Shown in pieces: positions 257 through 11,634 of a DNA stretch of 28,815 nucleotides. Made by a program: the position numbers and the translations under genes. The stretch is from a virus: positions 1-28,815 of the IMG/VR virus record IMGVR_UViG_3300027859_000061. The stretch is one strand, 5' to 3'. Positions within the stretch are counted from its first letter, which is position 1. Each line of letters opens with the position of its first letter. Below the pieces are notes generated by a model. That model made no database searches, was not told the DNA's origin, and saw only the letters and a list, made by a program, of their open reading frames with translations.

Positions 257-889
257 TTAAGGAAGATAGTTAATCCATCCTGTGATTGCATACTTAGTAT
301 CTTGCAATGGTGGGTTACCTCTATGCACATGAGTAAACCCAGCTGGCCAACATACAAATCTTCCTTTCACTGGCGATACTCTTACACCTTGATATAAGAA
401 TTCTGTTTCACCACCATCTTCTACATCATTTAGATACACCATGTATGCAAGTATACTTGTTCTATCATATGCACTTGAACCACCTTCGAAATGCCAGTTA
501 TGATATCCTTCACTTGGTCTTGTCTTTTGCATTTTCATTTGTGCATTATAAAGACCACTATAAACACCTGAGTCAATTACAGGATATCTTATTTGCCATG
601 ATTCTATCACATCATTGTGAATCCAATCACCTATATCTCTGATTGCACCATTAGTCATTGTGTCCATCTCTGTAATGAATATTGATGTATCTGACCTCTG
701 TGCGATATGAGCGCCATAGTCTCTTCGTGTATGAGTTAGACCATGTTCTTCATGTTCATCAAATATACGGATACATTCATCACATACATCATCACCAATA
801 ATACCATCTAGTATTCTTATATGTTCACCAGTCGAATCATCCCATGGTAATTCTACTCTGTTCTTTACTGTTTCTCTATTATCTGCCAT
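257..889 (-). CDS. 2OG-Fe(II) oxygenase, prolyl-4-hydroxylase-like
   Basis: This 210-aa protein has the double-stranded beta-helix pattern of the P4H-like 2OG-Fe(II) oxygenases. The metal site reads YHNWHFEGG, so the first two ligands would be H133 and E135 (HxE in place of the usual HxD). The distal histidine is H189 in HVHRGNPP, and K199 in KYAITGW is placed to bind the 2-oxoglutarate carboxylate. Such enzymes use 2-oxoglutarate, O2 and Fe(II) to hydroxylate a substrate, which cannot be predicted here. It is the last of four tandem oxygenase-like genes; its ATG overlaps the stop of the upstream one as TAATG, so translation is probably coupled. The HxE variant leaves some doubt about activity. 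Confidence 0.85.
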   Translation of the reverse strand: MADNRETVKNRVELPWDDSTGEHIRILDGIIGDDVCDECIRIFDEHEEHGLTHTRRDYGAHIAQRSDTSIFITEMDTMTNGAIRDIGDWIHNDVIESWQIRYPVIDSGVYSGLYNAQMKMQKTRPSEGYHNWHFEGGSSAYDRTSILAYMVYLNDVEDGGETEFLYQGVRVSPVKGRFVCWPAGFTHVHRGNPPLQDTKYAITGWINYLP

Positions 890-1560
890 TATTCTTCTCT
901 CTCGTGTTCATCTCTACCGAACCATATCAGTAGAACAAATCGTTGACCCTCATATATCGGTTCAACCCCATGCCACATTTTTGTAGAATTGTTAAAGAAT
1001 GTAATTGTTCCTATATCTTTTGCAACTAGATTACCTTGCACATTGAGTTGACCGCCTTTGTAGTCATCATTGAGTTGCATGATACATGTTCCAAAGTCTG
1101 TATCTTCTGCAACATCTCTATGAAAAGGGAAGAATGAATCTTCTTTGTAGTGAACAATTTGCATGTATGTAATTCTTCTAAAGTCAGGATGGTCTGGTAT
1201 CAAATGACCCATGACTTCTAATACTGCATTGTATTCTTTTGAACCATCGGCGATAGTCGCATGGTCTTTGTTATGGTCTGCCTCATATTTGTATGATAAG
1301 TTTCTTTCTGTTATCTCATCTGGTGGTGTCACCTCTGAGTTTGCATAATCACATTCAGTAAACGGTAAGTTTAGAAATTGTTCTATGATATGGTCACAAC
1401 CCGCTGGTGTAATTATGTGTGGTATTATCGTAATGAAATCACTGTTGCGTTCTATTTCAAACTCTTCGCCTGAATATTTGTCTACAACAACTTCTGATTC
1501 TGTTTGTTCTTCTGCACCATCCATCTTTGATTGTGCATATGTTCCTAAATTAATAACCAT
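889..1560 (-). CDS. 2OG-Fe(II) oxygenase
   Basis: The protein has 223 aa from the chosen start. FFPFHRDVAEDTDFGTC supplies the HxD iron ligands (H147, D149), MWHGVEP the distal His (H197), and the Arg of EGQRFVLLIWFGR (R207) is the likely 2OG-binding residue. This is a complete catalytic set for a 2OG-Fe(II) dioxygenase; the substrate is unknown. Another in-frame ATG lies six bases upstream at 1566, but the Shine-Dalgarno sequence AAAAGGAG (1567-1574) directly abuts that codon, whereas it has six-base spacing to the ATG at 1560, so 1560 is preferred. The gene overlaps its upstream neighbour by 11 bases and its downstream neighbour by one. Confidence 0.85.
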   Translation of the reverse strand: MVINLGTYAQSKMDGAEEQTESEVVVDKYSGEEFEIERNSDFITIIPHIITPAGCDHIIEQFLNLPFTECDYANSEVTPPDEITERNLSYKYEADHNKDHATIADGSKEYNAVLEVMGHLIPDHPDFRRITYMQIVHYKEDSFFPFHRDVAEDTDFGTCIMQLNDDYKGGQLNVQGNLVAKDIGTITFFNNSTKMWHGVEPIYEGQRFVLLIWFGRDEHEREE

Positions 1561-2266
1561 TGTCATCTCCTTTTGGGTGATAGAAAGTCACTTGCGTGAA
1601 TCTCCAGTTTTCTAAGTATCTATGATAGTCTTCTATATATGCACCATGCATACAATTACCAGGAAATATCACACATCGATTGAACTTCGCAGGTATAACT
1701 TTTCTTATGTTGAATCTCTCTTCTACAGGATATAATAATGCCATGTTCTCATCGTTAGTAATCCATTCACCATCATATATTGCAGTTCCACCATCTTCTT
1801 GTTTATCAAGATAGACTAACATGTTGAGTGTAGACAAATGGTCTGGCGTATTCAATGCACTATCAATGTGAGGATAGTGTTGCATCTTCTTATCAAATAC
1901 TTCTGCTGTCTTGAAACAGTTGAACTCATATAGGCGTGACCAATCATAATGACCTTTGAAGAAATATCGTCTGCATAAATCTAATAATCTCTGTTGAGAG
2001 TTTTCATATAATCTAGTTGGGTGACCAACCTTGTCTACAATTCTACAGTCGAAGTAATCTATACCATTGCGTGTGTTAGATTCAGGATTATATTTCCATA
2101 ATGGGTATTGTCTGTTGATTAAGAACTCGTGTAAGTCTTCTGCATTTTCATAGAAGTCATCTATCACAATTGAGAAACCATCGAATGTATGATTATCAAA
2201 TGAACCTCTCATTTTGTATAGTTCATCGTAATCTACTATTCTGTTGATGTCATCTATGTGGTTCAT
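1550..2266 (-). CDS. 2OG-Fe(II) oxygenase-like protein
   Basis: This 238-aa protein carries a recognisable facial triad: H133 and D135 in YPHIDSAL, and H207 in FPGNCMHGAY, with R222 (NWRFTQ) in the expected 2OG-binding position. The segment LNMLVYLDKQEDGGTAIY matches the core strands of the fold, where a GGT(A/E)IY/F pattern is typical of phage and bacterial members. The substrate is unknown. The start ATG overlaps the TGA of the preceding gene (ATGA), so it is translationally coupled. It differs strongly from its three oxygenase neighbours, so the cluster is not a simple recent tandem duplication. Confidence 0.8.
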   Translation of the reverse strand: MNHIDDINRIVDYDELYKMRGSFDNHTFDGFSIVIDDFYENAEDLHEFLINRQYPLWKYNPESNTRNGIDYFDCRIVDKVGHPTRLYENSQQRLLDLCRRYFFKGHYDWSRLYEFNCFKTAEVFDKKMQHYPHIDSALNTPDHLSTLNMLVYLDKQEDGGTAIYDGEWITNDENMALLYPVEERFNIRKVIPAKFNRCVIFPGNCMHGAYIEDYHRYLENWRFTQVTFYHPKGDDNGY

Positions 2267-3006
2267 GTCAAAACTCCATAATCAAATTGGTCGCCATGAT
2301 GATATGATTCTAAATCTTCGGCGTGTTGTAAGTTAAAGGATATACTTATGCGTTCATAAGATTCATTTTCTCGTGGGTGACCCTTTGGTACGCTATGCAT
2401 TAGATACGATGGCCACAATAAAAAGTCACCATCTTGTGGGTGAAAGTTGAATGATGTATGTTGTCGACCAGTAAATTCATATTGTGAGTCTTCTGGTCTC
2501 ATCTCATCATCATTACCTGACTGACTATGTAATGCAGGCATATTAGGATTCCAGAACTTGATTGGTTCTGATGAGTCTTGCGTTGAGACATAGTATGTGC
2601 CTGATAGTCTAGACTTAACATGATTATGACATTCATGGTCATGTGGTTCATTGTATACATTCACCCATGCAAAGAAATGTATATCGTGTCTATTGACATC
2701 TGTAAAATCTAAATTGTATTGACTTCTACAAAACTCAACATAGGTATCTTTCATCTGATTTGCAAAGTCATTATACCAAGGTTGTTGGTGTGTCTGTTCT
2801 CTTGCATCAGGATAAAAGTATGTGGTGTATTCTGTTAGTGGGTCACCTTTCGGTAATGTGTCTATTATATTTCTACAGTGGTGTGCAACCTCTGTATGAT
2901 TTAGATTTACTTTTCCTTGAAATATAGTTGTAGGGAAGACATTGACATAATCTCCTCTACAAGGTGAATAAGTATTGTTAATTCTGTTCGTCTGTATTGG
3001 TTTCAT
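2263..3006 (-). CDS. Putative 2OG-Fe(II) oxygenase (2OG-FeII_Oxy_5-like)
   Basis: The 247-aa protein resembles the family of putative 2OG-Fe(II) oxygenases in which the iron site sits in an H-x-H...SGTYYV context: here H127 and H129 precede SRLSGTYYVST. The later part GDFLLWPSYLMHSVPKGH gives the distal His (H204), and the Arg in ERISISFNL (R219) is the likely 2OG ligand. The N-terminal VNVFPTTIFQGKV is also usual for this family. His replacing Asp as second ligand is a family feature rather than damage. Its start lies 29 bases inside the preceding lipoprotein gene, and the next gene begins at its stop. It is the first of four tandem oxygenase-like genes. Confidence 0.75.
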   Translation of the reverse strand: MKPIQTNRINNTYSPCRGDYVNVFPTTIFQGKVNLNHTEVAHHCRNIIDTLPKGDPLTEYTTYFYPDAREQTHQQPWYNDFANQMKDTYVEFCRSQYNLDFTDVNRHDIHFFAWVNVYNEPHDHECHNHVKSRLSGTYYVSTQDSSEPIKFWNPNMPALHSQSGNDDEMRPEDSQYEFTGRQHTSFNFHPQDGDFLLWPSYLMHSVPKGHPRENESYERISISFNLQHAEDLESYHHGDQFDYGVLT

Positions 3007-3490
3007 TCACGGTCACATTACGATAATATATTACAACTTCTCCCAATTGTTTGATGTATCTCTTTAACTCTTGCATATCTTCTGCCATGACTTTGTAGTC
3101 ACCGATAGTAGTTGCAACAAATAGTATCTCACCATCATTTACTCTTCTCATTTCATCCATAAATTGGTCATAGTATGTATAACCTACTGGCCAGTCTGGA
3201 TTCTCTCTTTCATCTAACTCACATGTCTTTGGTCTTTTGAATTGTTCTACACCCTCATCGTTGAACTTCTTAGGTTCATATGGTATAGTTCTTCTACATG
3301 GATTTACTATCTTCGCCTCTGATACTACAAACCATTTCGGTGCTGTTAGTTGCACTGGTCTAGGCAAATCAGGTTGAAGTATTTCAATCTCTAATGGTTT
3401 AGATTCTATCTGTATCTTTTTTGTTGGTAATAACGAACAACTAGTCGTTAGTATCAGGATTGGTAAGATTATATAATTCTTTAGTGTCAT
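2978..3490 (-). CDS. Lipoprotein, candidate outer-membrane spanin (Rz1-like)
   Basis: The 170-aa protein begins with a short charged end, a hydrophobic stretch and a lipobox-like TTSC at residues 15-18, so it should be a lipoprotein with its acylated Cys near residue 18. The mature part is rich in proline early on (LQPDLPRPVQ). Its start lies within the 3' end of the preceding membrane/coiled-coil gene in another reading frame, the arrangement of Rz/Rz1 spanin pairs that fuse inner and outer membranes in the last step of lysis of Gram-negative hosts. GGAGGG eight bases before the ATG is a good ribosome site. It is longer than lambda Rz1, so the assignment rests on topology and gene arrangement, not sequence identity. 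Confidence 0.6.
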   Translation of the reverse strand: MTLKNYIILPILILTTSCSLLPTKKIQIESKPLEIEILQPDLPRPVQLTAPKWFVVSEAKIVNPCRRTIPYEPKKFNDEGVEQFKRPKTCELDERENPDWPVGYTYYDQFMDEMRRVNDGEILFVATTIGDYKVMAEDMQELKRYIKQLGEVVIYYRNVTVNETNTDEQN

Positions 3491-3824
3491 CCTCTATGCC
3501 CTCCATTACTAGTTCACTTGCATTGTTCATTCTTAGTTCTATCATACCAGGTTTCTTTAGTGCAAGTAAATCTAAATTGTGTCTTGAAAATATTTCTAGG
3601 TATTCTGCCTTCTCTGATTCAATTTCTGCATTTCGTCTAGTCATTTGCAAAAGAGATTTACCTTGTTTTTCAAAGTTATCTCGCAAGGCGGTCATCGCCT
3701 GTGTCTGTTCTTCTAATGCAGTTTCTAATTTTATATTGTTCTCTTTGAGTGTCTCATTCTGATTATACAAATAGAATGTGAGTAAACCCAAGGTCACCAA
3801 TAGACCCATTGTAAATTGATTCAT
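3441..3824 (-). CDS. Inner-membrane coiled-coil protein, candidate i-spanin (Rz-like)
   Basis: This 127-aa protein has one N-terminal membrane segment (about residues 6-22) followed by a long charged, heptad-like helix (residues 24-90), which is the layout of an Rz-type inner-membrane spanin with the coiled coil in the periplasm. The downstream lipoprotein gene overlaps its last 50 bases in another frame, matching known embedded or overlapping spanin pairs. AGGGAG upstream of the ATG is a good Shine-Dalgarno sequence. A 26-aa membrane ORF lies just upstream. No endolysin was recognised in the window, so lysis genes may be dispersed, as in T4-like phages. Confidence 0.6.
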   Translation of the reverse strand: MNQFTMGLLVTLGLLTFYLYNQNETLKENNIKLETALEEQTQAMTALRDNFEKQGKSLLQMTRRNAEIESEKAEYLEIFSRHNLDLLALKKPGMIELRMNNASELVMEGIEDDTKELYNLTNPDTND

Positions 3825-4156: not shown

Positions 4157-4170
4157 ATATTTAGTTGTTA
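4157..4170 (-). promoter_or_regulatory. TAACAACTAAATAT element upstream of the 85-aa gene
   Basis: This 14-base sequence on the minus strand recurs exactly at 21527-21540, again five bases (counted from the ACTAAATA box) before a start codon without a Shine-Dalgarno site. Its 9-base front half, TAACAACTA, is also found at 15319-15327 before the gene starting at 15307. ACTAAATA resembles the T4 late box TATAAATA with two changes. It may be a variant late or middle promoter; the overlap with the upstream stop codon (AAC TAA) is a caution. Confidence 0.35.
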
Positions 4171-4670
4171 TTTCTGAGGTCTTTTAGAATGTTGATAGTA
4201 TTCTTTGCACTAGTGTGAACTATGCCGATACCACCTGCCTCTTCCCATGCATCGATGTTCTTTTGTCTATCATCGATTAGAACAGAACCCTCATAGGCGT
4301 ATGCCGCCTTTTGTGTCCCTGTAAATGTGCAAGTCACTGGCACAGTAGGGTCAACATGTCTCTTAATCCATTCGTTCTTATCAAACACAACCAACTCTCT
4401 GTTGACTTCACCAGCGGCAGTCAATATCTCCCATGGTGTTTCACAATGTCTGACATATGCAAGTAAGTCATACATGTCAACCATAGGTGGCAAGTTTGCG
4501 AATAGTCTTTTGTTAGTAAGTTCTTCTTTTCTTATATCGTATGTAGTGTGACCTGCATCATCATTAGTAAGTGGTTCACCCAAATACTGAGGCATTTCTA
4601 CACCCCTCAAAAAGTCGGCGAGAACACCGTCCATGTCTAAAAATATTCTTTTTATTTTTCCTTTCATCAT
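4161..4670 (-). CDS. HAD-family 5'(3')-deoxyribonucleotidase-like phosphatase
   Basis: The 169-aa protein opens with the HAD motif I FLDMDGVLADF (nucleophile D12, acid/base D14), has a motif II-like ILTAAGE, and ends with motif IV SVLIDDRQKN. The small size and DMDGVLADF signature match the NT5C-like deoxyribonucleotidases of phages, which remove phosphate from (deoxy)nucleoside monophosphates; a role in tuning nucleotide pools would fit the upstream nrd operon. The frame extends to a TTG at 4706, but that TTG is the first base triplet of a perfect -35 box. The start at 4670, six bases after the TATAAT box, is therefore chosen; it also places motif I close to the N-terminus as in homologues. 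Confidence 0.8.
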   Translation of the reverse strand: MMKGKIKRIFLDMDGVLADFLRGVEMPQYLGEPLTNDDAGHTTYDIRKEELTNKRLFANLPPMVDMYDLLAYVRHCETPWEILTAAGEVNRELVVFDKNEWIKRHVDPTVPVTCTFTGTQKAAYAYEGSVLIDDRQKNIDAWEEAGGIGIVHTSAKNTINILKDLRNNN

Positions 4671-4676
4671 GTAAGT

Positions 4677-4706
4677 ATTATAGTCTTTTTTGATGGTCAT
4701 TGTCAA
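4677..4706 (-). promoter_or_regulatory. Consensus sigma70 promoter for the HAD gene
   Basis: On the minus strand a perfect TTGACA (4701-4706) and a perfect TATAAT (4677-4682) are 18 bases apart. The -10 box ends six bases before the ATG at 4670, so the transcript should begin at or next to the start codon. The promoter lies inside the 3' end of the HExxH gene, indicating that the HAD gene can be transcribed separately from the nrd operon. Confidence 0.7.
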
Positions 4707-5152: not shown

Positions 5153-5399
5153 CTTTTTCCTCGTCTAGTTTCTTCTCTCCTATGACTTCATCATAGAAGT
5201 TCTCAAATGACTTTGATTTACCATTTATTGTTGCATATGGTAATTCTCTGTCTTCTGGTGGATTCATAAAGTCTTCGCCCTTTGTATATACTCTGACTTC
5301 ATGTTCATCATGGTCTATGGTTCTAATGACATGTTTCCACCTCATATCTATAACATCTTGTTCGTTAGGATGGTTCAGATATAAGATGTAAGAGTTCAT
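5145..5399 (-). CDS. Hypothetical acidic protein
   Basis: The 84-aa product has no motif that I recognise. It has a short beta-like N-terminus (NSYILYLN), many charged residues and an acidic, Lys/Glu-rich C-terminus. The start codon overlaps the glutaredoxin stop (ATGA), so the two are coupled in translation. Its place inside the nrd/redox operon suggests an accessory role there, by position only. Confidence 0.6.
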   Translation of the reverse strand: MNSYILYLNHPNEQDVIDMRWKHVIRTIDHDEHEVRVYTKGEDFMNPPEDRELPYATINGKSKSFENFYDEVIGEKKLDEEKDD

Positions 5400-5629
5400 A
5401 CTTTTCTATAACCCTTAGACCATTCTTCTAGTTCAGTGTAACCACCTATGTTTTCACCATGAACTCTGATTTGTGGAAATGTTCTTGCACCAGGAAACTT
5501 GTCTAACATTTCTTCTCTGCCAAAATCTGTTCCTAATGATTGATATGTGTATTCATACCCTTTCATTTCACATAATTGTTTTGCCCTATCACAAAAAGGA
5601 CATTGTGGTTTTCCGTATATCTCTATCAT
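5396..5629 (-). CDS. Glutaredoxin
   Basis: This 77-aa protein is a complete glutaredoxin: active site CPFC (C10-C13), the cis-proline segment TFPQI (T50-P52) and the glutathione-binding GGYTEL (from G62). It should use glutathione to reduce disulfides in the cytoplasm; the obvious partner is the C-terminal CxxC of the NrdA encoded upstream, since each round of ribonucleotide reduction leaves that pair oxidised. Start and stop overlap neighbours as ATGA on both sides, placing it firmly in the nrd operon between the cytochrome c gene and an 84-aa unknown. Confidence 0.93.
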   Translation of the reverse strand: MIEIYGKPQCPFCDRAKQLCEMKGYEYTYQSLGTDFGREEMLDKFPGARTFPQIRVHGENIGGYTELEEWSKGYRKV

Positions 5630-6075
5630 TCTGGTAACCCCGCTTCTATAAATTCGCCAATAGTATCTATATCACTATCTGATAATAGACCTGCCTGAGC
5701 CCACATAGTTGAACTCATATTGCCGACTGTTTCTCTATTTTGATAGGCGTATAACCTATCGACTATGTATTCTTTACTTTGACCTGCAAGTGCAGGAAAT
5801 ACTCCCATACCCTCGCCTTTCTGACCATGACAAGCGGCACAACCACCCCATAGACCACGAATAGAACTGAATTCGTCAAGACTTGCAAGTGCTTGTTTCT
5901 CTCTTAATTGTTCTACAACAGTTCCGTTTTCTTCGACATATTTGACATAACATTCACCTGTGCATGAACTGTTTCTTGGGTAACCTTTGTATTCTAAGTT
6001 GTTATATGTATGACTTAAAAGACCATACATGAACCCACATATGCCTATTACTAAATAAAATGCATTTTCTCTCAT
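5626..6075 (-). CDS. Membrane-anchored cytochrome c, class I (c553-like)
   Basis: The 149-aa protein has an N-terminal hydrophobic segment (residues 6-21) acting as signal peptide or membrane anchor. It then has a linker with a CTGEC pair (C38, C42) and a cytochrome c domain: heme-binding CAACH at 79-83, GxGxxxFPALAGQS, and a likely axial Met at M124 in TMWAQAGLLSDSDI, typical of c553-type proteins. It should sit on the periplasmic side and need the host's heme-attachment machinery. An upstream in-frame start at 6165 would place 30 extra residues before the signal; the ATG at 6075 is chosen because it overlaps the previous stop as ATGA and puts the hydrophobic segment at the N-terminus. Cytochromes are unusual phage cargo. 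A role as an electron shuttle that keeps respiration going during infection is inference. Confidence 0.88.
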   Translation of the reverse strand: MRENAFYLVIGICGFMYGLLSHTYNNLEYKGYPRNSSCTGECYVKYVEENGTVVEQLREKQALASLDEFSSIRGLWGGCAACHGQKGEGMGVFPALAGQSKEYIVDRLYAYQNRETVGNMSSTMWAQAGLLSDSDIDTIGEFIEAGLPE

Positions 6076-6293
6076 AGTTTTATTGCCAATAGTAAGAAAA
6101 TCGCCATCAATGTGATGTTTGCAAAGAACATCAATAAACCTAGTATCGTATGATACCAAATCCATCTTGTCTTGTATGCGTTCTCTATTGTTAATTCATC
6201 GGGGTCAGGCGAACCATCTGTATTTCTTGCAACTTTTTTAGATAGTTCTTCCTCTTCTCTACTTCCCCATAGTATTTGCCACCATTTGTTCAT
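6072..6293 (-). CDS. Small membrane protein next to cytochrome c
   Basis: The 73-aa protein has a charged, cytoplasmic-type N-terminal half (EEEELSKKVARNTDG) and a hydrophobic C-terminal half from residue 44 (WIWYHTILGLL... to LLLAIKL), long enough for one long or two short membrane helices. I recognise no family. It lies between nrdB and the cytochrome c gene with ATGA overlaps on both sides, so it is co-translated with the cytochrome and could be its membrane partner or dock it to a host oxidase. That is inference from position and topology. Confidence 0.7.
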   Translation of the reverse strand: MNKWWQILWGSREEEELSKKVARNTDGSPDPDELTIENAYKTRWIWYHTILGLLMFFANITLMAIFLLLAIKL

Positions 6294-7387
6294 AATTTGA
6301 AATCCTGAAATGTATCGTCACTGACATCTTGTTTAATCCCACCAATGACATAAGATTCAATCTCTGTCTCTTGTGGGGCGTTCTGTAATCCTCTACTATT
6401 CAACCAGTGACGAGTCCATGGTAAAGGATTGTTAGCAGATGATACATCGTATATTGGGTTGAGACCAATCATTCTTAATCTCTTGTTTGCAATATACTCG
6501 ACATACTTATTCAATAGTGGTACCGATAAACCTATCATACTACCATCTTTGAATAGAAACTCTGCCCATTCTTTTTCTTGTGCAACTGCATCTTCATACA
6601 TCTCGTAAACTTCTTGTTCACAATCTTTCATGACTTTATTCATTATCTTATCATTCTCATGTTTCTGATAACATTTAAGTATGTGTTGTGATGTTGCAAG
6701 GTGTTGTGCCTCATCTCTGGCGATGAATGATATTATCTTCGCACTTCCTTCCATCAGTTTAAGTTCACCAAATGCAAAACTACATGCAAATGATACGAAA
6801 AATCTTATGCCCTCTAGTATGTTGACTGATACAAGTGCAAGATATAATGCCTTGTATAGTTCATACTCATCTACTTTCAACCCTAAGAGTTGTCTACGAC
6901 CTAATTCTATGAAATGGTCATACTTTTCTGTGACCATAACTGCCCTCTTAATGATTGCATCTTCGTCTAAAATAGTGTCAAATACATCGGCAGGGTTTGG
7001 GTATATGTTCTTGATGATATGTGTATAACTTCTACTATGAATAGTCTCCATGAAGTCCCATGTAATGATACAAGACTCTAGTTCAGGTAAAGTGACGAAT
7101 GGTAAGAATGCTATGGACGGCGCTCTACCTTGAACTGAGTCTAGTAAAGTTTGATATCTGAGATTAGAAGTAAAGATATGTTTTTGTGCATCATTGAGTG
7201 TTGCGTAATCGTTTCTATCTTTTTGTAATGATACTTCTTCTGGTCTCCAGAAATACCCTAATTGTGTTTGTGTAAGTTTGTCAAAGATAGGATATTTGAA
7301 CTCATCAAATCTTTGCGTGTTTAGTTCTTCACCAAAGAATAACTTGTTCTTTGTGAAATCGATTTTGTTCTTATTAAATACTGTCAT
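6290..7387 (-). CDS. nrdB: Ribonucleotide reductase class Ia, small subunit
   Basis: This 365-aa protein is the radical-generating beta subunit of aerobic ribonucleotide reductase. All diiron ligands and the radical tyrosine are present. D83 lies in LLDSVQGR, E114 and H117 in METIHSRSY, the radical Y121 follows directly, E192 lies in NILEGIRF, and E226 and H229 in RDEAQH. They match E. coli D84, E115, H118, Y122, E204, E238 and H241. The frame opens at 7411, but the ATG at 7387 overlaps the preceding TGA (ATGA) and gives the usual N-terminus TVFNxN, so it is preferred. It works with the NrdA encoded upstream; the two genes are separated by an oxygenase gene. Confidence 0.97.
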   Translation of the reverse strand: MTVFNKNKIDFTKNKLFFGEELNTQRFDEFKYPIFDKLTQTQLGYFWRPEEVSLQKDRNDYATLNDAQKHIFTSNLRYQTLLDSVQGRAPSIAFLPFVTLPELESCIITWDFMETIHSRSYTHIIKNIYPNPADVFDTILDEDAIIKRAVMVTEKYDHFIELGRRQLLGLKVDEYELYKALYLALVSVNILEGIRFFVSFACSFAFGELKLMEGSAKIISFIARDEAQHLATSQHILKCYQKHENDKIMNKVMKDCEQEVYEMYEDAVAQEKEWAEFLFKDGSMIGLSVPLLNKYVEYIANKRLRMIGLNPIYDVSSANNPLPWTRHWLNSRGLQNAPQETEIESYVIGGIKQDVSDDTFQDFKL

Positions 7388-8325
7388 TTCTTTTTCTCTA
7401 CTATATGCCAATCATCATAATTGTTCACCATGTTTTGATACTCTGCCTTATAATATGCAGTATCAAATCTATTGAACTCTTCACTTGTTTGTAAATTTGT
7501 CCATCTATTTGCACGACCATCTAGTTCTAATGCATATCTAGGATGTGCTGTCGGAACATCATGGTTTTCGCCTACAATAAACTCATTGATATCTCTCATG
7601 AGAGATTGTGCATTGAAGAAGTGAATGAATAGATGATAACTATAATCACCTAGTAAGTAGTCTCGCCAGTGTGGTATGTTTGGTCCTTGATACAACAGGA
7701 TATCTCCTGGTTCAAGTGATATCGCCTTACACCCATGATTAGTTCTAAGTCTCTGCGGTATGTCCTGTGATTGTTTCTTTACAGTATCGCCATCGACTTT
7801 TGCATAATTTCTATCATTCTTTACCCATATCTTCCAAGGTTTGTTGTCATCGGTTTTGTAATCTAGACAAAGTGTTGCACTTACCTCACATGATGGTCTA
7901 TCAGTGTGAGTTCCTAGATATGCACCTCTTGTATACTTTCTAGTATATGAGTATGTCTCCCTCAAATCCATATCAATATAATCTTTGAGTTTATTATGTA
8001 TAAAACCGTGAAGTGCAACACCCCATGGTGTGCAATAACCACCCTTAGATTTACCTATTGATGACTGAGGATTCTTAAATGTGATATCTCTGTTCTCTTG
8101 TTTTGTGTGATAGTCACCTCTTTCTTCATCAGCACGCCATATATCCATTGCAAATCGAATCATTTCTTTTGGTAAAAAATCTCTCAACACAACATATCTT
8201 TCTTTCATGAACTGCCATGTTTCAGGATTAGTTCTGCCTCTTATCTTTGTTGTGTGTTCATGTGATTCATGAACTCTGGCATCCATATAATATTCTATTG
8301 TCTTTGCATCAAATGGCACAGGCAT
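7384..8325 (-). CDS. 2OG-Fe(II) oxygenase-like protein between nrdA and nrdB
   Basis: The protein has 313 aa from the chosen start. Iron-site residues are visible as GTHTDRPSCEVS (H140, D142) and IPHWRDYL (H219), in the strand context of the double-stranded beta-helix fold (EPGDILLYQG before the distal His). Basic residues near the end of the fold could bind 2-oxoglutarate, but I cannot pick one with confidence. The frame extends to a TTG at 8349, with ATGs at 8343 and 8340. ATG 8325 is chosen because GAGGAAG lies six bases upstream. It overlaps the end of nrdA by 17 bases and nrdB by 4, so the three are co-translated. A link to ribonucleotide reduction is possible only by position. Confidence 0.75.
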   Translation of the reverse strand: MPVPFDAKTIEYYMDARVHESHEHTTKIRGRTNPETWQFMKERYVVLRDFLPKEMIRFAMDIWRADEERGDYHTKQENRDITFKNPQSSIGKSKGGYCTPWGVALHGFIHNKLKDYIDMDLRETYSYTRKYTRGAYLGTHTDRPSCEVSATLCLDYKTDDNKPWKIWVKNDRNYAKVDGDTVKKQSQDIPQRLRTNHGCKAISLEPGDILLYQGPNIPHWRDYLLGDYSYHLFIHFFNAQSLMRDINEFIVGENHDVPTAHPRYALELDGRANRWTNLQTSEEFNRFDTAYYKAEYQNMVNNYDDWHIVEKKK

Positions 8326-10600
8326 CGCAATCTTCCTCATCATTATCAAATGGGTCTTGTTCTAATGGTTCTTGAATTACATCTTCTACTTTACCATCCA
8401 TAGTGTTCTGATAGTATGATGTCTTCCAACCATATTTGTATGTATTCAGTAAGTCTTTCGCCATAACTGATACAGGCACTTCATTATTATCATAGTTCTC
8501 GGGATTGTATGACCAGTTACCACTGATACCCTGGTCGAAAAACTTCTGCATTACTGCAACTATGTTGATATAACCTGTATTGTCTGGCATATCCCATAAC
8601 AAAGTGTATGCACTTTTAAGGTGTGAGTATTGTGGCACTATTTGTTTGAGTGTTCCTTTCTTACTCTTCTTGACTGACAAGTAATCTCTAGGTGGTTCAA
8701 TACCATTAGTTGCATTTGATGATACACTAGATGATTCACTTGGCATTTGTGCAGTAAGTGTTGAATGTCTCAAACCATTTGTCATTATCTCTGCCCTTAG
8801 TTTCTCCCAATCCATAGTATATTTTGGTTTTACAATATCATCTACATCTTTCTTATATGTATCTATCGGTAGAATACCTTTTGAATACTTTGTTCTATCG
8901 AAATAATCACATGCACCTTTTTCTATTGCAATTTGATTACTTGATTTGAGTAGATAGTATTGAAACTTCTCAGTCAACTCGTGGACGAGATTCCAGGCGT
9001 TCTGGTCACTATATTTGACTCTATTTTTCGCCAGATAGTGTGCAAGACCAATATACCCTATACCTAAACTTCTTCTTGCACGAGTAGACATCTCAGCGGC
9101 AGCGACAGGATATTCTTGATAGTCAATCAACTCTTCTAAACCCCTCACTGCAAGGTCGCAAATCTCTTCTAGTTCTTCATCTTTGACTACACCCACATTC
9201 ACCGCACTCAATATACATAGTGCAATCTCACCCTCATGGTCATCAATATGTTGTATTGGGTCTGTAGGTAATGTAATCTCTTGACATAGATTACTCATGT
9301 TCACCTTATCTAAGAATGAACTATGAGTATTACTATGGTCTATATTCATGATATAGATTCTGCCAGTCTCCGCTCTTTCTTTGAGTAAATCTGTAATTAA
9401 CTCTCTGGCACTTATTTTCTTTTTAGGAACTGAATATGCGTTCTCATACTTTTCATACATCTCATCAAATGTATCGGTACCAAATGCCTCGTATAAACCA
9501 GGCACATCATGAGGACTGAATAAAGTTATCTCTTCGTTGTTTAAGAATCTCTTGTAGAATAATTCTGATAACTGAATACTATAATCTAGTTTTCTAACTC
9601 TGTTGTCTTCTGTTCCTTTGTTGTTCTTTAGAACAATAATATCTTCGATTTCTTGGTGCCAGATAGGAAAATGAACTGTTGCACTACCCCCTCTTACACC
9701 ATTCTGAGTGCAACATCTGACCGTTGACTCGAACTTTTTCAAGAATGGTATAACACCTGTGTGTTGCACTTCGCCACCTCTTATCTTTGCACCAAGACCT
9801 CTAACTCTTCCTGCGTTGATACCAATACCTGCCCTTTGGGCGACATATCGACCAATCGCCATGTCACTAGAGAATAGTGAATCTAATGTATCATCACTAT
9901 CAACTAGAACACATGATGCAAATTGTTTCAGTGGTGTTCTTACACCTGCCATGATAGGCGTAGGTATGTTTATCTTAAACTGAGATGTTGCATCATAATA
10001 TTTTTTGATATATGTAAGTCTGTTATCTTTGTCATAGTTTCTAAACAATGTCATTGCAATTAACATATACATGAATTGTGGTGTCTCAAACAATGTGCCT
10101 GTTGACCTATCTTGAATCAGATACTTATCTACTACTTGTTGTAGACCTGCATATGTAAATTCATAATCTCTACTATGTCTTAGATATGAGTTTAGTTTTG
10201 TATACTCTTCTTCTGTATAATCACTGAGTAAATCATTTGTATATAAACCTGCGTTCACATTTCTTTCTACGATATCTCTGAGTGGTGGATATATCTCTGC
10301 ATCTTTCCACTTTGTATTGAATACTTGTTTCTGAACTGCAAACAATAATAATCTGGCCGCCACGAACTGATAGTTTGGTGATTCTAAACTGATAAGGTCA
10401 CTTGCACTTTTGACAAGTATCTTTTGTATTTCTTGCGTTGTAATGCCATCATAAAACTGTAGACCACTATTCATTTCTACTAATGATTCTGATACACCTG
10501 TAATGTTTCTACAGGACTTCTCAACCATTTTATGTATCTTATCTAAATCAATATTTACTTTTGAACCATCTGACTTAATAACTTTTATTTCTGAATTCAT
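8309..10600 (-). CDS. nrdA: Ribonucleotide reductase class Ia, large subunit
   Basis: This 763-aa protein is the catalytic alpha subunit, almost the length of E. coli NrdA (761). It has an N-terminal ATP-cone (EIKVIKSDGSKVNID), the redox cysteines C230 (FASCVL) and C462 (ALCILSA), the active-site loop N437/C439/E441 (SNLCQEITLPT), the radical-transfer pair Y729-Y730 (TSYYQNT) and a C-terminal CxxC (C758, C761) that hands reducing power to the active site. It makes dNDPs for phage replication. The nearby glutaredoxin is the likely reductant. Its start overlaps the primase stop as ATGA, so primase, nrdA, the oxygenase and nrdB form one transcript. Confidence 0.98.
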   Translation of the reverse strand: MNSEIKVIKSDGSKVNIDLDKIHKMVEKSCRNITGVSESLVEMNSGLQFYDGITTQEIQKILVKSASDLISLESPNYQFVAARLLLFAVQKQVFNTKWKDAEIYPPLRDIVERNVNAGLYTNDLLSDYTEEEYTKLNSYLRHSRDYEFTYAGLQQVVDKYLIQDRSTGTLFETPQFMYMLIAMTLFRNYDKDNRLTYIKKYYDATSQFKINIPTPIMAGVRTPLKQFASCVLVDSDDTLDSLFSSDMAIGRYVAQRAGIGINAGRVRGLGAKIRGGEVQHTGVIPFLKKFESTVRCCTQNGVRGGSATVHFPIWHQEIEDIIVLKNNKGTEDNRVRKLDYSIQLSELFYKRFLNNEEITLFSPHDVPGLYEAFGTDTFDEMYEKYENAYSVPKKKISARELITDLLKERAETGRIYIMNIDHSNTHSSFLDKVNMSNLCQEITLPTDPIQHIDDHEGEIALCILSAVNVGVVKDEELEEICDLAVRGLEELIDYQEYPVAAAEMSTRARRSLGIGYIGLAHYLAKNRVKYSDQNAWNLVHELTEKFQYYLLKSSNQIAIEKGACDYFDRTKYSKGILPIDTYKKDVDDIVKPKYTMDWEKLRAEIMTNGLRHSTLTAQMPSESSSVSSNATNGIEPPRDYLSVKKSKKGTLKQIVPQYSHLKSAYTLLWDMPDNTGYINIVAVMQKFFDQGISGNWSYNPENYDNNEVPVSVMAKDLLNTYKYGWKTSYYQNTMDGKVEDVIQEPLEQDPFDNDEEDCDACAI

Positions 10601-11634
10601 ATCTTCTTATACTCCACCAATTGTAATTTTGCTGAGAGACCTTTAACTGTATTACGATTGATGATTTCAACAACCTCACTCTCACTCAAACCACTCATTA
10701 TCATATCATTAATATCTTTACACTCTGTTATTCGTTTATCATTCCAAATACACACACGATACCCTAGGTCTATGACCTCTTCTATCTTCTTGATTATCTC
10801 TTTGTTGCGTGGTTCATTGTCAAATACAAGTATTGCGTTGTCTTTTATATCTTCTGGTATCTTCTTAAAATCACTTCCTGCAACTGCGATACTATTCGGA
10901 AGGAATAGACTGTCTATGGGTCCCTCTGTCACATAGATTGTCTTTGTTCTGTCCACTTTATTAAGATTAAAGATGAGTGGAAAGTCATCTCGAAATCTGA
11001 GTGTAAGATATCTGAGTGGTGAATCGTTGATTGCACGACCAGATACCCCAACCAGTTTCCCATCCTCATCATAGAATGGTAATACTATTCTAGGGTCTTT
11101 ACCTAGAACTCTGTCCTTATACTTATTAGATAATAAGTTAAGAGTTTGTGCCTGTGGTACGAACCACAAGTCTTTCATTGCGAACTCAGGCACTTTTCTA
11201 TCTAACAGATATTGGCGTGCCTCATGATTCTCGACTACAGGAAATGAAATCGCTTCAAGCATGTTCTTTTTCTCCTTAGTCTCATTTTTATTTAGAATAT
11301 CTGTTCGTGGAGTGAACTTAAATTTATCACTCGAAGGCATTTTTCTTTTGGGTTTATGCCCTTGTTCTGCGAGAAACTCTTTTAAGTATTCTCTATGAAC
11401 TGTAGGAAAGTTTTCTTTTATAAAGTTTACACTTGATGTAGTCTTACCACAGTTATGACATTTATAGATGAACGATTGTTCTTTAACAAAATGATAACCT
11501 CTGGACTTATATAGGTTCTTTTGAGAGTCACCGCAATAGGGACAGCGATGATTCAATGTGTTTTCATTGACCCATTTTGACCTGTCGAGATTCGCCATAA
11601 CCATCGACAAATATTTTCGCTCTAACCATAACAT
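10597..11634 (-). CDS. 61: DNA primase, T4 gp61-like
   Basis: The 345-aa protein matches the length of T4 gp61 (342). A zinc ribbon at the N-terminus (C31-x2-C34 and C59-x2-C62, in CPYCGDS and KCHNCGK) binds the template. The TOPRIM catalytic domain follows, with the glutamate motif IYVTEGPIDSLFLPNS and the acidic motif ILVFDNEPRNKE, in the order found in bacterial-type primases. It makes RNA primers for lagging-strand synthesis with a gp41-type helicase, which is not in this window. A sigma70-type promoter ends eight bases before the start codon, and there is no Shine-Dalgarno site. It is the first gene of the nrd operon. Confidence 0.92.
   Translation of the reverse strand: MLWLERKYLSMVMANLDRSKWVNENTLNHRCPYCGDSQKNLYKSRGYHFVKEQSFIYKCHNCGKTTSSVNFIKENFPTVHREYLKEFLAEQGHKPKRKMPSSDKFKFTPRTDILNKNETKEKKNMLEAISFPVVENHEARQYLLDRKVPEFAMKDLWFVPQAQTLNLLSNKYKDRVLGKDPRIVLPFYDEDGKLVGVSGRAINDSPLRYLTLRFRDDFPLIFNLNKVDRTKTIYVTEGPIDSLFLPNSIAVAGSDFKKIPEDIKDNAILVFDNEPRNKEIIKKIEEVIDLGYRVCIWNDKRITECKDINDMIMSGLSESEVVEIINRNTVKGLSAKLQLVEYKKI

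Follow-up and report, generated by a model that had tools for sequence, protein, structure and literature searches.

The window, that is, the whole stretch of DNA analysed here, is a 28,815-base virus record of a T4-like phage with about 36% G+C. Its minus strand carries, in this order, nrdA, the gene of a 321-aa protein, nrdB, the gene of a 73-aa membrane protein (called mem73 below), the gene of a 149-aa cytochrome c and a glutaredoxin gene (Table 1). Three 4-nt ATGA overlaps join nrdB to mem73 (6290-6293), mem73 to the cytochrome (6072-6075) and the cytochrome to glutaredoxin (5626-5629). An upstream in-frame ATG at 6165 would give a 179-aa version of the cytochrome; the relatives begin at or near the ATG of the 149-aa form. 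An initial annotation of the region had pointed to a CAACH heme site, a likely axial M124, an N-terminal anchor, a length of 149 aa, the ATGA overlap with the preceding gene and a place between nrdB and glutaredoxin. All of these are present, on the minus strand.

Table 1. Position of the genes and protein features in the window
Feature	Position	Strand	Basis
Phage class I cytochrome c, 149 aa, N-terminally anchored	5626..6075	-	sequence, Pfam, alignment of relatives, predicted fold
N-terminal hydrophobic segment (about residues 5-24), predicted uncleaved anchor	6004..6063	-	sequence and hydropathy
C38-TGE-C42-Y43, invariant cysteine pair, proposed disulfide	5947..5964	-	69/69; C-x6-C in two divergent phage sequences
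CAACH covalent heme site (C79, C82, H83; residues 79-83)	5827..5841	-	sequence; 69/69
Met124, distal axial ligand	5704..5706	-	69/69; aligns with Met of c554/c552
mem73, 73-aa single-TM protein; optional neighbour	6072..6293	-	ORF; comparison of loci
nrdB, class I ribonucleotide reductase small subunit	6290..7411	-	PF00268 E 3.4e-53; 68.7% to Pelagibacter phage HTVC008M
Glutaredoxin	5396..5629	-	PF00462 E 4.1e-12
321-aa protein between nrdA and nrdB, 2OG-Fe(II) oxygenase-like	7384..8349	-	motif reading; no Pfam match
nrdA, ribonucleotide reductase large subunit	8309..10600	-	PF02867 E 2.8e-131

The 149-aa protein contains a single CXXCH motif. It scores above the cut-off of the PF00034 profile (E 2.3e-6; 29.3 bits vs 21.3) and just short of that of the related PF13442 (25.2 bits vs 27). 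A PDB profile search retrieved 22 sequences over the heme domain, with c-552/c4, c546/556, c554 and c552 on top and c553 lower. A structure model of residues 24-149, built on a 63-row alignment (A2; pLDDT 79.9, pTM 0.61) and replacing an earlier model with a pLDDT of 66, resembles cytochrome c546/556 (8yts; Z 13.0, rmsd 2.0, 81 aligned residues), c554 (2zzs; Z 12.1), c552 (1cno; Z 11.7) and the c4 chain of a Pseudomonas bc1-cbb3 supercomplex entry (8smr_K; Z 11.4). In structure matching, c546/556, c554, c552 and the c4 domain rank over c553, with Z values from 13.0 to 11.0 that are partly tied. No viral structure in BFVD matched the model at E <= 0.001. By its CXXCH motif, distal Met, predicted fold and PF00034 score, the protein is a predicted class I cytochrome c. 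The initial annotation had called it c553-type; the class I assignment stands while c553 seems too narrow, since c546/556, c554, c552 and the c4 domain fit as well or better. Identity with CcoP, subunit III of the cbb3 oxidase, was considered and rejected: TIGR00782 gives 17.5 of 179.95 bits and there is one heme motif, not two.

With the class I monoheme cytochromes c (c546/556 8yts, c554 2zzs, c552 1cno, c553 1dvh, and the c4 domains 8smr_K and 1etp) the phage protein shares CXXCH, the distal Met, the predicted fold (Z 13.0 to 8.1) and, as read from the alignment, the FPxLaGQ and LSDxDI segments. It differs from them by an additional N-terminal anchor, followed by a linker of about 50 residues that includes a cysteine pair (CxGxCY), and by the sequence Met-Trp-x-Gln-Ala at the axial Met.

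Relatives were sought in IMG/VR, where the single cytochrome protein found 36 loci and a 29-row alignment (A1) found 348 cytochrome places, of which the best 80 were taken. There was no match at E <= 0.01 among 50,697 phage records, compared at the protein level and possibly lacking near-identical records. After removal of shorter, weaker and identical rows, 69 distinct near full-length sequences were retained, including four that come from phage-like MAG contigs. All 69 keep C38, C42, Y43, W76, C79, C82, H83, F93, P94, M124 and W125. Conservation of the heme motif, which the initial annotation had set as a test of its reading, is thus complete in this sample. M120 is kept in only 67 of the 69 and M124 is therefore the better candidate for the axial Met; it also aligns with the Met of the solved structures of c554, c552 and c546/556. 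The invariance of C38, C42, Y43, C79, C82, H83 and M124 indicates that these features are not due to chance. A hydrophobic N-terminal segment occurs in 68 of the 69 sequences, the exception (L150) being cut by a contig end. Comparison of the window gene with its nearest relative, L001, gives a dN of 0.071 for a dS of 0.37 (0.100 and 0.46 with L002), and as judged from these sequences the cytochrome is under purifying selection. Being an intact gene within a phage operon, and under such selection, it is by sequence an auxiliary gene for a putative phage-encoded electron carrier. Later scans added 19 distinct frames, some of which repeat the same contigs or are incomplete. They show M-W-x-Q-A (19), CXXCH (18), CxxxCY (16), C-x6-C-[YF] (2) and FP (16), from which it appears that distant members vary more.

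The cysteine pair of the linker had been proposed, as CTGEC, to be a redox or attachment site. Its spacing is replaced by C-x6-C in distant phage relatives adjacent to DoxX genes (L306, L307 and L308, identical or nearly so, and L310), that is, in two distinct sequences that keep both CAACH and the M-W-x-Q-A segment. As the pair survives this change of spacing, it would be more consistent with a disulfide, structural or redox-active, than with a metal site of the CxxxC type. The pair is invariant in the 69 sequences; its role as an attachment site finds no support. A Sco- or CuA-like copper site at CxxxC was rejected: in our reading, alignment A1 shows no conserved His/Met pattern adjacent to the pair, besides the shift to C-x6-C in the two divergent sequences.

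Cellular sequences resemble the cytochrome mainly in its heme domain. A search of 398 genomes from the same phylum as a Paucimonas MAG gave matches at E <= 1e-8 in 124 of them; the matches listed cover mostly about residues 60-147, and six start between residues 10 and 55. In a further set of 119 genomes, which overlaps the first in part, 85 match at E <= 0.001. We examined 42 cellular loci, including those six and nine early-starting ones from the second set; each of the 42 has a frame that matches the phage profile, and there are 45 such frames in total. None of the 45 has C-x3-C-[YF] or C-x6-C-[YF] within the 70 residues before the heme motif, and the upstream part of the early-starting matches reads mostly as a signal peptide or another domain. 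Since none of the 42 loci carries the pair pattern, the linker looks phage-specific within the material searched. A cellular relative sharing the N-terminal region, which could have pointed to the redox partner, was found neither in a GTDB scan nor in the 398- and 119-genome sets and the 42 loci. The GTDB scan yielded six loci. Two were discarded, L125 as what reads as a chance match in the wrong frame and L126 as a match to the heme domain alone. The other four (L121, L122, L123 and L124), binned with Synechococcus, Sphingobacteriales and Planctomycetaceae MAGs, are phage-like by gene order; they contain nrd-cytochrome operons of the phage type and are probably mis-binned phage contigs. A SAR11 16S probe pattern found nothing among the 398 genomes, and a low-GC genome considered as a possible SAR11 centre is not SAR11; its order includes genomes as large as 5.4 Mb.

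The gene neighbourhood was compared in 98 cytochrome loci, one per contig with near-identical contigs kept separate: 80 from the best of the alignment search, nine from the single-protein search, four from the mem73 scan described below, four from GTDB and the window. Because they were gathered via the cytochrome or its neighbours, the co-occurrence counts are not population frequencies. The place in a nucleotide-synthesis operon proposed by the initial annotation recurs widely, nrdB lying within 2 kb upstream in 73 of the 98 (overlapping or within 10 nt in 32). It is elsewhere in the locus in four and not in the sequence examined in 21, some of these from contig ends. Of the 70 loci flanked by 1.5 kb or more on each side, nrdB is near the cytochrome in 56 and glutaredoxin in 54.

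According to identity with the nrdB of the window, the neighbouring nrdB genes were divided into lineages A (above 60%), B (40-60%) and C (below 40%), which comprise 18, 52 and 3 loci respectively. The nearest known nrdB is that of Pelagibacter phage HTVC008M for the window (lineage A), that of Xanthomonas phage XbC2 for L163 (lineage B, 61%) and that of Pelagibacter phage HTVC115P for L156 (lineage C, 72%). In a tree of the 69 phage and 25 cellular cytochromes, the five labels A, B, C, no nrdB and cell require 21 changes, compared with a minimum of 4 and a mean of 51 after shuffling, and the well-supported branches require no fewer than 7 for A and no fewer than 7 for B. The split between phage and cell sequences has a weak bootstrap of 41/98, which is itself unsettled, many cell rows filling less than half of the columns. 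This mixing of nrdB lineages on the cytochrome tree indicates that the cytochrome follows phage lineage loosely and has moved between phage lineages while keeping its seat by nrdB. A scan anchored on nrdB found the cytochrome in 2 of 80 loci among the matches listed, and in 1 of 64 with at least 1.2 kb downstream; it misses known carriers such as L001, so these figures give no frequency. The linkage is one-sided: the cytochrome is mostly found by nrd genes and these need no cytochrome. By this pattern of sequences the cytochrome is an optional, mobile addition.

The mem73 gene had been put forward as a co-translated membrane partner of the cytochrome. Its relatives occupy 568 IMG/VR places, of which the best 80 were taken. 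Of 89 ORFs of the family, 15 lie in cytochrome loci and 74 in loci without cytochrome, most of the latter from the mem73 scan itself. Conversely, mem73 occurs somewhere in 10 of the 98 cytochrome loci. In seven, all of lineage A, it lies no more than 400 nt upstream of the cytochrome; it is directly adjacent in five (the window and L039-L042) and separated by a 56-aa ORF in two (L177 and L124). A conserved pair of cytochrome and mem73 was accordingly rejected, and the proposed partnership finds no support. Often mem73 alone fills the slot between nrdB and glutaredoxin. A relative lies beside an annotated baseplate hub and tail lysozyme gene in Phage C48C1 (L037, 5968-6159), which gives the family a second home in phage genomes; the cytochrome search had no match in the collection holding this phage.

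Cytochromes c of class I obtain their heme in the periplasm, through the maturation system of the host, and pass electrons on, as a rule from bc1 to a terminal oxidase. Cellular cytochromes with this role may be anchored at the N-terminus. On account of its position, anchor, fold and conservation, we propose that the phage supplies a membrane-tethered electron carrier which would feed a host terminal oxidase during replication. We assign this reading, which combines sequence, structure model and analogy, a probability of about 0.52. The cytochrome would be made together with the phage ribonucleotide reductase, insert into the membrane by its N-terminal helix so as presumably to face the periplasm, and obtain heme from the host cytochrome c maturation system. 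It would then carry electrons in the host respiratory chain, with bc1 and a terminal oxidase as the most likely partners. Oxygen respiration, proton-motive force and ATP supply could in this way be kept going during phage dNTP synthesis. The position of the gene beside those for DNA building blocks suggests that the infected cell is kept respiring while phage DNA is copied. The initial annotation had seen in the protein a periplasmic-type cytochrome c, of class I and anchored in the membrane, with a predicted host-dependent heme attachment; the present comparisons support this view. Electron carriage, which it had also put forward, is the likely role.

The main alternative is that the cytochrome serves a phage-encoded membrane redox assembly, made of DoxX, a protein called tm127 and/or small single-TM proteins, which would take electrons from quinol or thiols and protect the cell or tune its redox state rather than top up the host carrier pool. 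Besides mem73, the membrane families found near the cytochrome are tm127 (two TM segments, the second with a conserved His), mem86 (a single C-terminal TM), DoxX (PF07681 over cut-off in both proteins tested) and the 56-aa protein. They are not versions of one homologous partner, a possibility rejected since hhalign probabilities did not exceed 1.1% in five pairs (mem73 against the other four; mem86 against tm127). Their distribution argues for the assembly in that mem86, tm127 and DoxX occur in 59, 43 and 11 of the 98 cytochrome loci and in 7, 0 and 0 of 78 loci without cytochrome, mostly mem73 loci. DoxX relatives occupy 126 IMG/VR places, some on contigs of 230-250 kb (DoxX scan L266-L343, e.g. 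L302 and L315). Among the best 80 of the 126, the cytochrome occurs somewhere in 22, within 200 nt of DoxX in 16, and tm127 somewhere in 36. The 14 loci anchored on tm127 include four with the cytochrome, 12 with mem86 and four with DoxX. However, 58 of the best 80 DoxX loci have no cytochrome, tm127 lies within 200 nt of DoxX in only eight of them and all three genes occur together in nine; moreover, the DoxX and tm127 scans share contigs with the cytochrome set and are not independent of it. At least one of the five families is nearby in 50 of the 70 well-flanked cytochrome loci and none in 20, and the window itself has no match to DoxX, tm127 or mem86. An assembly of this kind seems unlikely.

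It is less probable still that the cytochrome acts as the carrier for a particular host dehydrogenase, e.g. in methanol or sulfur-compound oxidation, so that electrons enter the chain from a single substrate. The closest structure found belongs to a cytochrome from Thioalkalivibrio, a sulfur oxidiser; another gene of the window has its nearest relative in the Methylophilales phage Melnitz, and a model for methanol-related c-type cytochromes is matched weakly (E 0.037; 13.8 of 161.75 bits). Against this, the cytochrome spans several phage lineages and the window nrdB points to pelagiphages. A membrane-anchored heme-domain protein without electron transfer, acting in lysis timing, superinfection exclusion or as a heme sink, appears quite improbable: a spanin-like gene pair does lie nearby in the window, and upstream of nrdA in many relatives, yet both axial ligands are strictly conserved, the predicted fold is of class I and Met124 would be needless. 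Finally, the four MAG contigs might suggest cellular contamination or passing capture of a host gene. Their phage gene order, the number of IMG/VR places, the absence of the linker from the cellular loci and the overlap of the window gene with its neighbours inside a phage operon make this explanation extremely improbable.

A bolder extension of the proposed electron carrier, tentative and on the whole rather unlikely, is that phages carry their own reshuffled branch of the respiratory chain. It would combine a cytochrome c peculiar to phages, whose membrane-proximal domain bears a disulfide, with DoxX, small single-TM subunits and a 2-TM protein that has a conserved His in the membrane. Its location beside ribonucleotide reductase would allow electron flow, oxygen use and dNTP synthesis to be set up together, and the set would be traded among unrelated phage lineages. 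As a separate observation, DoxX and tm127 represent a second recurring association of phage membrane genes.

Phage electron carriers are known from cyanophages, where they belong to a light-driven chain. The plastocyanin and cytochrome c families are unrelated. Plastocyanin is a copper protein found with photosynthetic hosts, whereas the phage cytochrome is predicted to carry heme c and to be membrane-tethered, lies in an nrd operon and is proposed to act in non-photosynthetic respiration. Nevertheless cyanophage plastocyanin (petE) is likewise a phage-encoded electron carrier and, according to a review (PMC10452541), may pass electrons to cytochrome c oxidase. In a cyanophage transcriptome study, oxygen is proposed as the acceptor and nrdA/nrdB belong to the highly expressed middle cluster (PMC5082946).

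If the proposed role is correct, management of the electron-transport chain would extend to the phages of respiring bacteria, through a widely distributed heme c carrier that is linked, in several lineages of nrdB, to dNTP synthesis, and the gene would offer a concrete handle on whether respiration limits phage DNA synthesis. A literature search limited to the main texts of open-access journal papers found no description of this cytochrome family. Earlier studies report cbb3 oxidase reads in the viral fraction (PMC3474794), soxD on viral contigs (PMC8190135) and ccoP in a review table (PMC12713726). CcoP (cbb3 subunit III) and SoxD are also heme c proteins but, unlike the phage cytochrome, subunits of known enzymes. 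A cytochrome c gene is likewise attributed to Microcystis viruses, as an auxiliary gene 'cytochrome C' (PMC12542629). That gene differs by its cyanobacterial host and photosynthesis context, the distinction being drawn from the description only. A study of oxygen-depleted ocean waters reports having seen no electron carriers, cytochromes included, in its phages (PMC8115048), and the word cytochrome is absent from the main text of a pelagimyophage survey (PMC7029224).

Other genes of the window, all on the minus strand, deserve mention. The 321-aa protein matches PHROG families labelled 'ferrochelatase', a doubtful label since the sequence itself looks as if it may be 2OG-Fe(II) oxygenase-like. 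Four consecutive proteins at 257-3006 have matches of the 2OG-Fe(II) oxygenase type (PF13640, PF13759), the third being slightly under the cut-off for PF13640 and over that for DUF6445. A further nucleotide-metabolism gene, encoding a deoxy-5'-nucleotidase-like protein (NT5C, PF06941), lies at 4161-4706. At 3441-3824 a protein with an N-terminal TM segment and a coiled-coil-like region overlaps a lipoprotein with an LTTSC lipobox (2978-3490). The pair matches no spanin family and, in our reading of the sequences, resembles an i-spanin/o-spanin couple; relatives of both genes adjoin nrd genes in many loci. Outside the window, the cytochrome is followed in one contig (L197) by a ferritin-like protein (10457-10897; PF00210 E 5.2e-17).
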